A program made the translations under genes and the position numbers. Under the pieces are notes generated by a model. It saw nothing but the letters and a program-made list of their open reading frames with translations. It was not told where the DNA came from and did no database searches. Shown piece by piece: positions 1 to 32,178 of a stretch of DNA of 38,331 nt. The DNA comes from Gemmatimonadales bacterium (GTDB lineage: Bacteria; Gemmatimonadota; Gemmatimonadetes; Gemmatimonadales; JACORV01): positions 1-38,331 of the forward strand of contig JAUYOW010000187.1 of NCBI GenBank assembly GCA_030697825.1. The letters run 5' to 3'. Positions within the stretch are counted from its first letter, which is position 1. Every line of letters starts with the position of its first letter.

Positions 1-564
1 GAATTCTTCATAAACCTTAGCGGACAGGATTTCCCCCTCAAGTCGCAGACGCACATCCAAGACTTTCTTCGCCGCAATAGAGGAAACGATTTCATCCGCG
101 TGGCTAACCAGCGCACCTTCCGTCCTGACACACTATCTCGAATACAGAACCATGTTACCGAGTTCGGCAACAGGATCCTACGCATTCCTATCAGGCGACC
201 GTATCTTCGAGTGGGGACGCCTTCTATCGGAACTCAGTGGATGATCTTGAGCCGGAAGTTCTGTGAATTTGTCTGCTACAGCCCTGAGGTCGAAAGGTTC
301 AAGAGATTCTATCGGCACACCTTCATATCGGATGAAGGATTCTTTCAGACGGTAATAATGAATACCAGTTACCAGGGAACTATCGTGAACGACGATAAAC
401 GGACCATTGACTGGGTGCCGCTAGGAATAATCAAGTTACGTCCCAGAGACTTCACATCCAACGACGCCGATTTCTTGATGGCAAGTCCAGGCTTGTTTGC
501 CCGCAAATTCGACGTAACCGTTGATGGAGGCATCTTGAGTATCTTGGAGGCAAATCTATCGTAG
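1..564 (+). CDS. Glycosyltransferase family 14 (core-2/I-branching type), 5'-truncated by the window edge
   Basis: The reading frame is open from base 1, so this is the C-terminal 187 residues of a larger protein. The fragment begins with the FINLSGQDFPLKS stretch typical of the GT14 'Branch' family. It continues with GTQWMILSRKFCEFV, then TFISDEGFFQTVIMNT, and ends with SPGLFARKFD. In this family these segments form the sugar-nucleotide and acceptor-binding part of beta-1,6-N-acetylglucosaminyltransferase-like or xylosyltransferase-like enzymes. In bacteria such genes usually lie in polysaccharide or O-antigen clusters; the acceptor here cannot be told. Base composition is about half A+T, quite unlike the strongly G+C-rich genes that follow. 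Codon use also differs (ATA, AGA, TTA and AAT are frequent), which suggests horizontal acquisition. An ATG-like GTG lies at 100, but homology clearly extends upstream of it. Confidence 0.85.
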   Translation, partial: EFFINLSGQDFPLKSQTHIQDFLRRNRGNDFIRVANQRTFRPDTLSRIQNHVTEFGNRILRIPIRRPYLRVGTPSIGTQWMILSRKFCEFVCYSPEVERFKRFYRHTFISDEGFFQTVIMNTSYQGTIVNDDKRTIDWVPLGIIKLRPRDFTSNDADFLMASPGLFARKFDVTVDGGILSILEANLS

Positions 565-6878: not shown

Positions 6879-7844
6879 ATGAGCCGAAAGAGCCGCACCA
6901 CAACGTCGGGGGTGGAGCGCCTCCTGGAGCAGCGTCGGCTGTTCCAGGATTGGCTCACCAAGCTCTCTGGCGGCGCCGGCGAGACGATGCCGGGACACGT
7001 CGTCGAGAAGGTGCGCAACGACTACCGCGCCCGCCTCGCTGAGGTGATGACCGAGCTGGCGCAGCACGACGACTCCATCCGCCAGGCACTCGCCGAGGCA
7101 CAGGGCCGCCACGAGTCGATGGAGCGGCAGCAACAGGCGGCCAAGGACGAGCTGGCGGAGGTGCGGCTGCGCAAGCAGGTGGGCGAGCTGGACGATGCCG
7201 TCTTCAAGGAGATCAACGCGCGGCTCAAGGGCACTATCGACGAAACCTCGAAGGATCTGGCTGCCTCGCTCCGGGACATCGAACGTTACGAGGAGATCAT
7301 CGAGCTGATCGCGGCCGAAGGCGTCCCCGCGGCGCCGGTCGCCACGTCGGCCGCGGCCGCAGCGGCTCCCGAACCAGCTCCCGCCCCCGCCGCGCCGGTC
7401 GCCGAGCCGGCAGTTGCGGCTCAGGGCTCGGAGAGTGAAGAGGCGCCGGAGCACCCAGCCTCGCAGATCGACGCGCTGGAGGAGATGGCGTTCATCCGGT
7501 CGATGACGGGCGTGATGGCGCCGCCCCAGCGCCCGTCCAGGCCGGTCGGCAGAGTTGCCGAGCCGGAGCCGCAGGCCTCACCGAAAGCGGCCCCCGAGCC
7601 GGCGGCCGCGATCGTAGCGCCTCCCGCGGAGATGCAGGTCGTGCGGGACCAGGCGTTTGAGGAACCCGAGGCGTCGGTCGAGGAGCGGGGGTCGAAGCAA
7701 GTCGCAGGGACGGTCCGGCGCTCGGAGGACGCGCGTGCGGCGCAGGCCGAAGGGAAGGCGCTGGTATGCGGCGAGTGTGGTGCGCCGAACCTGCCGACAG
7801 AATGGTACTGCGCGAAGTGCGGGGCGGAGCTCTCGGCCTTCTAG
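6879..7844 (+). CDS. Coiled-coil protein with C-terminal zinc ribbon, function unknown
   Basis: I do not recognise a named family. The 321 residues fall into three parts. Residues 1-150 are charged and helical (RLLEQRRLFQDWL, EAQGRHESMERQQQAAKDEL) and should form a coiled coil. Residues about 151-290 are a low-complexity Ala/Pro/Glu linker. The last 25 residues hold a zinc ribbon with Cys297, Cys300, Cys311 and Cys314 (CGECG and CAKCG). The ATG at 6879 has the ribosome-binding site GAAACGGAG 8 nt upstream; a GTG at 6873 is the alternative. It follows the aldolase by 2 nt and meets rpsT tail to tail, sharing the CTAG at the stops. Confidence 0.75.
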   Translation: MSRKSRTTTSGVERLLEQRRLFQDWLTKLSGGAGETMPGHVVEKVRNDYRARLAEVMTELAQHDDSIRQALAEAQGRHESMERQQQAAKDELAEVRLRKQVGELDDAVFKEINARLKGTIDETSKDLAASLRDIERYEEIIELIAAEGVPAAPVATSAAAAAAPEPAPAPAAPVAEPAVAAQGSESEEAPEHPASQIDALEEMAFIRSMTGVMAPPQRPSRPVGRVAEPEPQASPKAAPEPAAAIVAPPAEMQVVRDQAFEEPEASVEERGSKQVAGTVRRSEDARAAQAEGKALVCGECGAPNLPTEWYCAKCGAELSAF

Positions 7845-8083
7845 CTCTGCTTCGCCAGCTTCTTCATGAGGCGCGACTTCCTGCGCGCCGCCGCGTTCCG
7901 ATGGATCTGTCCCTTGCGGGCTCCGCGATCGAGCGTTTTGATCGCTTCCGCGACCGCCACGGGCGTCAACTCGGCCCGGGCCTTCTTCACCGCGGTCTTG
8001 ATGGTCGAACGCTCGGCGCGGTTGTGCTTGGTCCGCTTCCGGGCCTGGCGCATCGCCTTCTTGGCAGACTTGATTCGGGGCAC
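7841..8083 (-). CDS. rpsT: 30S ribosomal protein S20
   Basis: This 80-residue, very basic protein (MPRIKSAKKAMRQARKR, then AARRKSRLMKKLAKQS) is S20, which binds 16S rRNA in the small subunit body. The start is GTG (8083 read on the minus strand), preceded by AGGAG. Weak non-ATG starts are known for rpsT in enterobacteria and serve autoregulation there; whether that applies here is unknown. Its stop overlaps the stop of the zinc-ribbon gene on the other strand. Its promoter shares a -35 box with the protease gene. Confidence 0.96.
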   Translation of the reverse strand: MPRIKSAKKAMRQARKRTKHNRAERSTIKTAVKKARAELTPVAVAEAIKTLDRGARKGQIHRNAAARRKSRLMKKLAKQS

Positions 8084-8131
8084 TGCGTCTCCTGATGGGT
8101 TGAAAAGCGATTCAACTCTTGAACCGCATTG

Positions 8132-8160
8132 AGCTTAGCCGGAGCCCGGCCTTTTGACAA
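8132..8160 (-). promoter_or_regulatory. Probable rpsT promoter
   Basis: On the minus strand, TTGTCA (8160-8155), a 17-nt spacer and TAAGCT (8137-8132) predict a start near 8126, about 42 nt before the GTG. Five bases of its -35 are also part of the plus-strand -35 of the protease gene. Confidence 0.65.
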
Positions 8161-8182
8161 CCCTTCCAAGCGCCGCTAGGTT
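8154..8182 (+). promoter_or_regulatory. Probable promoter of the site-2 protease/scpAB operon
   Basis: TTGACA (8154-8159), a 17-nt spacer and TAGGTT (8177-8182) predict a start near 8189, about 33 nt before the GTG at 8222. It is divergent from, and overlaps, the rpsT promoter. Confidence 0.65.
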
Positions 8183-8221: not shown

Positions 8222-8893
8222 GTGTCGCATTTCATCCTTATTTTTCCCGTCCTGCTATTCTCATTCGTTGCGCACGAGTACGCGCATGTCTGGGCGGCGC
8301 TCAAGCAGGGGGACGACACGGGCTACATGCTCGGCCGGCTGACGCTCAACCCGCTGCCGCACCTCGACCCGTTCATGAGCATCATCGTCCCGATAGGTCT
8401 CTACGTCATGACCAATGGGGCGTTCACGTTCGGTGGGCCGAAGCCGGCGCCGGTCACCCCGAGGAACTTCCGGAACTACCGCCGGGGCGACCTAGTCGTC
8501 TCGTCGGCCGGCGTCATCATGAACCTGATCCTCGCCTTGGTCTGCGCGGGCGTCTTCGTGCTGATCGGATTCGTGGGCGCGGAGGTGGGCGCGCTCCGCG
8601 GGTTGATGGGCACGCTTCAGACGATGGTGAGCTTCGGCGTGTGGTTCAACATCCTGCTCGCGTTCTTCAACCTCATTCCTATCCCACCGCTCGACGGCTC
8701 GCGCCTGCTGTACCACGCCCTGCCGCCGGCGTGGGGCGCGCGCTACCGGCAGCTCGGCGGCTTCGGGTTCATGCTCCTGATGGCGACGTTCTTCGTGCCC
8801 GGGTTCTGGAACGTGTTGCTCTGGCCGGTGGGTATGGTGACGACGACCGTGCAGTCCGCCATCGGCGCCTACAGCCTCCCGATCGTCCCGTGA
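8222..8893 (+). CDS. Site-2 protease family (M50B) membrane metalloprotease
   Basis: This 223-residue membrane protein has the zinc motif HEYAH near residue 18 in the first membrane segment. The second motif, NLIPIPPLDGSRLL (about residues 150-163), supplies the third ligand. There is no PDZ domain. This is the short YwhC-like group of intramembrane proteases, with substrates unknown. The start is GTG 8222 with a weak ribosome-binding site. scpA starts inside its stop codon (GTGA). A short M50 protease gene upstream of scpAB is a common arrangement in bacteria, so it is likely co-transcribed rather than functionally tied to condensin. Confidence 0.88.
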   Translation: MSHFILIFPVLLFSFVAHEYAHVWAALKQGDDTGYMLGRLTLNPLPHLDPFMSIIVPIGLYVMTNGAFTFGGPKPAPVTPRNFRNYRRGDLVVSSAGVIMNLILALVCAGVFVLIGFVGAEVGALRGLMGTLQTMVSFGVWFNILLAFFNLIPIPPLDGSRLLYHALPPAWGARYRQLGGFGFMLLMATFFVPGFWNVLLWPVGMVTTTVQSAIGAYSLPIVP

Positions 8894-9642
8894 CCGTGAC
8901 CGCCTCGATCCCCGGGGCGGGCGGGCCGTCCGACGGCGGCGGGTTCGTCGTCACGCTGGATCGGTTCTCGGGGCCCCTGGACCTCCTGCTGCACCTCATC
9001 CGGCGCGAGGAGATCGACCTCTGGGACATCCCGATCGCGCGGATCGCCGACCAGTTCCTCCGGGTGATCCACGACCTCGGGCTGAACGAGGCGGCGGAGT
9101 ACCTCGAGATGGCCGCGCGGCTGGTGCGCATCAAGGTGCAGATGCTGCTGCCGCGCCGCGGCGACGAGGAGCCGTGGGAGGACCCGCGCCACGAACTGGT
9201 GCGCCGCCTCCTGGAGTACCAGCAGATCCGCGAGGTGGTGGATTGGCTGGAGCGGGCCGCGCGGCGTCGCGCCGAGCGCTACGGCCGCGGCTGGGTGCCC
9301 GCTGCGCCGGACGCGCCGCCGCCGCCGCTCGCTTTCAGCATCGAGGAGCTGGTCGAGGCGGTCGAGCGCGTCCTGGCAATGTTCCCGGACGCCGTGATCC
9401 ACCGGGTCCTGCCGCATCCGCTCGACGTTGAAGGCGCCACGCGCCGCGTGCTCGACATGCTCGATGCCCGGCCGTCGTTCGGGTGGCGCGACCTGTTCGG
9501 AACGGCGCCCAGTATAGCGGACATCCTGGCGTCGCTGGTCGCGTTGCTCGAGTTGGCGCGTAGCGGCACCCTGACCCTTTCCCAATCCCGTCCCTTCACC
9601 TCTTTCTCGATCGATCGTGGACCAGCGTACCAGGCTGCTTGA
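8890..9642 (+). CDS. scpA: Segregation and condensation protein A
   Basis: A 250-residue kleisin. The N-terminal domain has the family mark LDRFSGPLDLLLHLIRREE and IDLWDIPIARIADQFL. The centre is LEMAARLVRIKVQMLLPRR, and the C-terminal winged helix ends in LLELARSGTLTLSQSRPF. It bridges the SMC heads and carries the ScpB dimer in chromosome compaction. The frame is open far upstream through the protease gene, but the GTG at 8890 that overlaps the protease stop gives the normal N-terminus. It overlaps scpB by 26 nt. Confidence 0.94.
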   Translation: MTVTASIPGAGGPSDGGGFVVTLDRFSGPLDLLLHLIRREEIDLWDIPIARIADQFLRVIHDLGLNEAAEYLEMAARLVRIKVQMLLPRRGDEEPWEDPRHELVRRLLEYQQIREVVDWLERAARRRAERYGRGWVPAAPDAPPPPLAFSIEELVEAVERVLAMFPDAVIHRVLPHPLDVEGATRRVLDMLDARPSFGWRDLFGTAPSIADILASLVALLELARSGTLTLSQSRPFTSFSIDRGPAYQAA

Positions 9643-10159
9643 AGCGGCGCTCTTCGCGGCGCCAAGACCCCTCGCGCTGGACGAGCTGCACGGGCTCGAT
9701 CCCGAGGCGACCGAGGCCGATTGGCGTCGCGCCGTCGAGGAGCTGCGCGACCACTACGACGCCGGCGGGCACGGCGTCGAGGTGGCCGCCATCGCCGACG
9801 GTTGGCAGATCCTTACGCGGCCGGTCTTCGCCGAGGCGATCGAGCGCGCGGCCTTCGCGTCCCGGCCCGTCAAGCTGTCGGGCGCGGCGCTCGAGGTCCT
9901 GGCGATCATCTCCTACCGGCAGCCGGTCGGTCGCGCGGAGGTCGAGGAGATCCGGGGAGTGTCTTCGGGCGGCGTGCTCAGGCTGCTCCAGGAACGCGGC
10001 CTGATCGAAGTCGCGGGCCGCTCCGAAGGGCTGGGCAGGCCGCTGCGGTACGCCACCACGCCGCTCTTCCTAGAGCACCTCGGCCTCGGCGACCTGGCCG
10101 ACCTGCCGCGTACCGACGAGCTGGCCGTGGCGCTGCGGCCACCGCAGCCGGAACCGTGA
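9617..10159 (+). CDS. scpB: Segregation and condensation protein B
   Basis: This 180-residue protein has two winged-helix domains. LEAALFAAPRPLALDEL opens the first. The second carries LEVLAIISYRQPVGRAEVEEIRGV, the ScpB signature, followed by LLQERGLIEVAGRSEGLGRPLRYATT. It forms a dimer on ScpA in the SMC-ScpAB complex. The GTG at 9617 lies inside scpA, and the rluB-like gene starts at its stop (GTGA), so the trio is coupled. Confidence 0.94.
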   Translation: MDQRTRLLEAALFAAPRPLALDELHGLDPEATEADWRRAVEELRDHYDAGGHGVEVAAIADGWQILTRPVFAEAIERAAFASRPVKLSGAALEVLAIISYRQPVGRAEVEEIRGVSSGGVLRLLQERGLIEVAGRSEGLGRPLRYATTPLFLEHLGLGDLADLPRTDELAVALRPPQPEP

Positions 10160-32106: not shown

Positions 32107-32135
32107 ATCGTAGGCCCGAAGCGGGCCTCTGTCAA
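32107..32135 (-). promoter_or_regulatory. Promoter of the Roadblock-receiver-manC operon with an inverted repeat in the spacer
   Basis: On the minus strand, TTGACA (32135-32130), a 17-nt spacer and TACGAT (32112-32107) predict a start near 32100. The spacer holds a perfect palindrome, GGCCCG-N3-CGGGCC (32113-32127), directly between -35 and -10. That is a common operator position. Confidence 0.7.
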
Positions 32136-32148
32136 GCACATTCGCCCG

Positions 32149-32178
32149 TTGACACCGGCTTCGCAAGTCGTCTATTCT
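32149..32178 (+). promoter_or_regulatory. Promoter of the lipoprotein-serS operon
   Basis: TTGACA (32149-32154), 18 nt and TATTCT (32173-32178) predict a start near 32185, about 8 nt before the ATG at 32193. It is divergent from the Roadblock promoter, with 13 nt between the two -35 boxes. Confidence 0.65.

Follow-up and report, generated by a model that had tools for sequence, protein, structure and literature searches.

The results of this work suggest that positions 8132-8182 of the window (by which we mean the whole stretch of 38,331 nucleotides analysed) probably hold two real housekeeping-sigma promoters that share a single -35 box, descend from a pair with separate boxes, and would be engaged by RNA polymerase in one direction at a time. 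Sequence comparison gives good support to the existence of the two promoters, to the separate boxes of relatives and to the absence of a block of DNA from the shared-box loci; the start sites, the sigma factor and the mutual exclusion at this locus we infer. In the explanation proposed here, rpsT (on the minus strand) and S2P-scpA-scpB (on the plus strand) would each be read from a promoter of their own, back to back, and in the ancestral pair each promoter would have had its own -35 box, usually with 12-15 bp between the two. Loss of the DNA carrying the rpsT -35 box would then have left rpsT to use the S2P box, TTGACAA, from which its -10 box is exactly 17 bp away, this direction of change being the one that the comparison favours. 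With a single box left, RNA polymerase could bind there in one orientation at a time only and, if such exclusion affects expression, the better-occupied promoter would lower the other passively, without any regulator.

The features of the region are listed in Table 1. The start codons of rpsT and S2P are divergent with 138 bp between them, and therefore both promoters should lie inside this short region, unless one of them is hidden within the divergent neighbour. It contains one TANNNT per strand, each exactly 17 bp from TTGACAA, and the inner edges of the two -10 boxes are 39 bp apart (8138-8176). The initial annotation had described this geometry, with TTGACAA serving both strands through 17-nt spacers to TAGGTT (plus) and TAAGCT (minus), and it proved exact to the base and was also recovered by script. 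The -35 hexamers of the opposite strands overlap at five of their six bases, so the two are overlapping divergent promoters in the sense of sharing DNA; they are not bidirectional promoters of the shared -10 kind, in which the -10 elements overlap and starts lie 7-25 bp apart. Downstream on the plus strand, the GTG start of scpA overlaps the stop codon of S2P (8890-8893), for which reason S2P, scpA and scpB are read as one operon, presumably co-transcribed, and the arrangement suggests that translation of S2P and scpA is coupled. The rpsT leader (8099-8125) carries GTTGAA, TTCAA and TTGAAC motifs which could pair, a similar set being present at locus L002, and leader control of S20 through them is possible. 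Elsewhere in the genome (G000:C191:590-1177) lies another site-2-protease-like gene, with 34% identity to the S2P at rpsT and with no rpsT detected in the 1.8-kb stretch around it.

Table 1. Coordinates in the window of the rpsT/S2P-scpAB features and of a second back-to-back promoter pair.
Feature	Positions	Strand	Details and basis
Shared -35 box TTGACAA	8154-8160	.	TTGACA (8154-8159) for S2P on +; TTGTCA (8160-8155) for rpsT on -; sequence
-10 box TAGGTT, S2P-scpAB promoter (predicted)	8177-8182	+	Spacer 17; sequence
-10 box TAAGCT, rpsT promoter (predicted)	8132-8137	-	Spacer 17; sequence
rpsT, ribosomal protein S20, start codon GTG	7841-8083	-	Pfam PF01649 (Ribosomal_S20p), E 1e-18
AGGAG, likely Shine-Dalgarno of rpsT	8089-8093	-	5 nt before GTG; sequence, putative function
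S2P, site-2 protease family (Peptidase_M50)	8222-8893	+	Pfam PF02163, E 1.3e-15
scpA (SMC_ScpA)	8890-9642	+	Pfam PF02616, E 1.1e-22 on 8938-9639
scpB (SMC_ScpB)	9617-10159	+	Pfam PF04079, E 4.9e-47
TTGACA-N17-TACGAT	within 32107-32178	-	Before roadblock/LC7 gene, then response regulator
TTGACA-N18-TATTCT	within 32107-32178	+	Before 196-aa protein without Pfam match, then serS

Measured against the E. coli consensus, the signals are modest. Both -10 boxes match TATAAT at three of six positions, which is not close to it, and this is why a generic promoter/terminator scan requiring at least 4/6 per hexamer and 9/12 in all reported no promoter at the site. Rfam models at gathering thresholds gave two tRNAs only and nothing at this locus, and a literature search returned no paper on transcription start sites and promoters of Gemmatimonas. 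Even so, the pattern TTGACA-N{12..22}-TANNNT occurs 52 times in this organism's own genome compared to 8 times for the reversed pattern, with spacers of 16-18 in 44 of the 52 matches and of exactly 17 in 23. Such an excess, together with the spacer peak, indicates that this type of promoter is a real signal in the organism, and one of the sigma-70/A kind, with a TTGACA-like -35, a TANNNT -10 and 16-18 bp between them. The complete two-sided pattern with a shared box is found once in the 3.37-Mb genome, at rpsT/S2P, its reversed form being absent. The E. coli -10 consensus may in fact be the wrong yardstick for these genomes, because the -10 boxes of relatives are mostly of the TANNTT form (28/34 matches on the S2P side and 26/40 on the rpsT side) and four or more of the six TATAAT bases are present in 8/34 and 15/40, respectively.

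If both promoters are real, they should leave a trace in related genomes, and such a trace is seen. S2P and rpsT were searched for in 61 genomes (60 relatives and the own genome) and matched in 57, some of the matches being weak or partial, and 58, respectively. S2P adjoins rpsT in 49 of the 58 genomes and is divergent from it in all 49; at the nine remaining rpsT loci the divergent neighbour is scpA in eight and, in G030, an ABC-transporter-like gene as judged by eye. Promoters were sought in the stretch between the start codons as a -35 box starting with TTG and having at least five of the six TTGACA bases, a spacer of 16-18 and TANNNT; pairs were counted when divergent and non-crossing, the tightest being taken, and first-order Markov copies of each region served as control. 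An S2P-side promoter is present in 34 of the 49 intergenic regions, compared to 0.5% of the resampled copies, and an rpsT-side promoter in 40, compared to 0.6%. A divergent pair of both is present in 32 regions and in none of 19,600 Markov copies, the relatives not being independent of each other, and 17 regions have no pair detectable with these box definitions. In the 32 pairs, own genome included, the two -35 boxes are 12-15 bp apart in 22, at least 32 bp apart in seven, and one and the same in three. Conservation, which the initial annotation had put forward as a check, thus extends to the two promoters and not to the sharing of a box, as 29 of the 32 pairs keep theirs separate. Where S2P does not adjoin rpsT, both promoters are found at two of the nine loci (G014, gap 12; G027, gap 14), one side at four and neither at three, so that the pair seems, on this thin evidence, to accompany rpsT and the scpAB operon whether the protease gene is present or not.

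The family to which the genome belongs shows both layouts side by side. Six of its seven genomes have the rpsT/S2P locus, the seventh (G003) giving no rpsT match and only a weak, partial match to S2P. TTGACAA is present at all six loci, and so is the S2P-side -10 box at N17, reading TAGGTT in five and TACGTT in one. It is used by both promoters in three of the six: the own genome (G000), G001 and G004. In the other three (G002, G005 and G006) rpsT has a -35 box of its own, TTGACT, 14 bp from that of S2P. Exactly the three shared-box loci lack, under three alignment settings, a 21-bp block that holds this separate rpsT box in the others. As all six loci carry TTGACAA, the order suggested is one in which the future shared box was present before the separate rpsT box was lost. 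The figure of 21 bp lends no separate support to helical phasing, being what results when a 14-bp gap closes up into a shared box.

Could the minus-strand hexamers be chance matches, with only the S2P promoter real and rpsT starting elsewhere? We think this quite unlikely. TTGTCA is admittedly one base off the -35 consensus, TAAGCT is a three-of-six match, and their shared use is confined to three genomes. Against it, the minus strand of the 138-bp region offers no other TANNNT, and G001 and G004 keep theirs at 17 bp from the shared box despite diverged spacers, of whose 17 bases only eight or nine agree in any pairwise comparison of the three shared-box loci. The distance from the rpsT -10 box to the start codon is also alike in the two layouts (36-48 at the three loci with one box, 43-44 at the three with two). 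Still less probable, to the point of being very improbable, is that TTGACAA is mainly an operator for a regulator of both genes, its likeness to a -35 box being secondary. The sequence is a near-palindrome (TTGWCAA, symmetric except at its centre), it is kept at the three family loci where rpsT uses another -35 box as well as at those where it does not, and in Acinetobacter a single repressor repeat overlaps both -35 boxes of the divergent umuDAb and ddrR genes, according to the part of the source available (PMC7273328). Yet on each strand the sole -10 candidate lies 17 bp from it, and the palindrome is not kept outside the family, because the S2P -35 box of other families reads TTGACA, TTGACT or TTGACC. 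Two promoters sharing one -35 box remains our preferred reading of the site.

How often the boxes merged can be approached with a tree of five proteins (PyrC, SerS, S2P, S20 and ScpA; 12 genomes, 1390 columns, SerS missing for G001). In it G000 pairs with G001 (98/98), G002 is sister to both (100/99), and G004 branches outside the others (85/91). A single clade for the three shared-box genomes is rejected (p-AU 0.000577, at a cost of 50 log-likelihood units), this group having been named after the trait was seen. The single-gene trees disagree with one another: that of S2P joins G001 with G002 (82%), and the place of G004 varies. The fewest changes of box layout on the tree are two, whether the family alone is scored or the outgroups G010 and G013 are added; for the outgroups G009 and G016 no promoter pair was detected, and the minimum is also two when these are scored as having separate boxes. 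The shared box thus looks like a merger of the conserved back-to-back pair, and one that probably occurred twice in the family, two mergers being the simplest reading because the outgroups G010 and G013 have separate boxes (gaps of 13 and 47). A history of one merger and two reversals is possible.

The exact shared geometry is not confined to this locus. It occurs at 40 places in 36 of the 288 genomes of the order, compared to one place for the reversed pattern and six, in the same genomes, when the minus-strand -10 box is moved by 5 bp; each orthologue counts as a separate place in all these figures, several of the 40 matches are orthologues, and some lie outside clear divergent gene pairs. 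A second type of shared -35 locus (L119-L128 except L124), of the form ACTTTTGACAAT, is found in genus g8 in all ten genomes searched. In nine aligned copies the boxes are kept by construction, having been found by pattern, and bases in common extend beyond the pattern, with a largely variable spacer on the plus side. Pfam places one g8 copy upstream of dnaE and a second upstream of a his gene (PRA-CH/PRA-PH); other flanks were judged by eye.

A looser layout, in which two TTGAC boxes face each other at a distance of 0-30 bp and one -10 box is present, gives 264 matches in the 61 genomes compared to 19 for the reversed pattern, two-sided sites counting twice. Among the matches listed (150 of 264, all from family f3) the gaps peak at 2, 8, 12-14 and 20-21. 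One universal spacing of facing -35 boxes was nevertheless rejected, because these peaks come at least partly from orthologous loci; in the own genome the 23 GTCAA..TTGAC places (11 for the reversed control) have spread gaps with none preferred. Examples in G044 are found at dnaA (gap 2), smpB (gap 8) and a roadblock gene (gap 14), and those with gaps of 1 and 9 in the same genome have no clear gene identity. The dnaA example (L136, G044:C4:59300-62300) has TTTTCCACA inside the promoter, upstream of the gene, where the facing boxes are 2 bp apart. TTTTCCACA, which we take to resemble a DnaA box, is present in 17 of the 18 gap-2 matches among the matches listed. The window itself holds a second back-to-back pair, with -35 boxes 13 bp apart (Table 1), and pairs of this kind also occur at a roadblock gene in G044 (assigned by Pfam) and in G050 (gap 18, judged by eye).

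Overlapping divergent promoters of several kinds are already known. In the lambda PR/PRM type the -35 boxes are separate and close, which is the layout of the 22 pairs with gaps of 12-15 bp, and such separate boxes may let two polymerases bind at once. A -35 box has room for a single sigma region 4, so that, unlike lambda PR/PRM, the shared box at rpsT/S2P should not admit two polymerases, and binding would be exclusive by geometry. Warman et al. reportedly described in 2021 bidirectional promoters with a shared, symmetric -10 element. As far as the available parts of two sources go, such promoters are common, their start sites lie 7-25 bp apart (PMC10268837) and, just like the rpsT/S2P site, they offer polymerase a symmetric element in two exclusive orientations (PMC12825309; PMC10268837). 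At rpsT/S2P, on the other hand, the shared element is the -35 box, the -10 boxes are separate, the predicted starts are about 65 bp apart and conserved genes lie both ways. The Pc and Pr promoters of pLS20 also overlap divergently and polymerase is taken to occupy only one of them; the reading favoured by the authors, in the part of their paper available, is that one -10 lies on the other's -35, and the switch is driven by a regulator, Rco (PMC4207663). At rpsT/S2P it is the -35 boxes that fall together, and there is no known regulator. At umuDAb/ddrR, too, the two -35 elements overlap with one short inverted repeat, with the difference that a dedicated repressor binds the repeat and that the accessible text treats joint repression, not polymerase competition (PMC7273328). 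No description of a -35 box shared between conserved housekeeping operons was found in the literature searched, which was covered in part and with few subscription journals.

The initial annotation went further and held that the two operons should compete. Comparison upholds its two back-to-back promoters of housekeeping type with one -35 box between them, but competition is not established, as it presupposes that polymerase sits at one or both promoters for much of the time. The rival with the same anatomy and a different consequence, namely that both promoters are real and the shared box is neutral compaction, with occupancy too low for mutual disturbance and nothing regulated, comes not far short of an even chance. 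In E. coli, at promoters where the -10 is the shared element, lowering the strength of one direction changed the other little and raising it greatly reduced the other, competition being slight at basal strength, according to the part of that study available (PMC12825309). By analogy, any effect at rpsT/S2P would hinge on the activity of the rpsT promoter. Judged by the E. coli consensus the two -10 boxes are weak, and among close relatives both layouts are found next to the same genes, which is what one would expect if either is workable. On the other side, S20 is a ribosomal protein, and thus its promoter is likely to be busy in growth, and the spacing of 12-15 bp in 22 of the 32 pairs is one that a wholly neutral arrangement would not have to keep, although these sequences are related and not independent.

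What is at stake is the role of polymerase competition where promoters overlap, which may be a means of gene regulation or may only come along, harmlessly, with genome compactness. Relatives having the same two genes behind either separate or shared -35 boxes amount to a natural experiment on this question, which the second shared-box locus, present in all ten g8 genomes searched, makes testable at more than one place. It is hard to refrain from the wider idea, which we hold to be rather unlikely, that bidirectional promoters with a shared -35 form a class which arose repeatedly in the order by merging and was kept as a passive either-or choice between housekeeping operons. If true, the rpsT/S2P-scpAB locus would trade the synthesis of a ribosomal protein against chromosome condensation.
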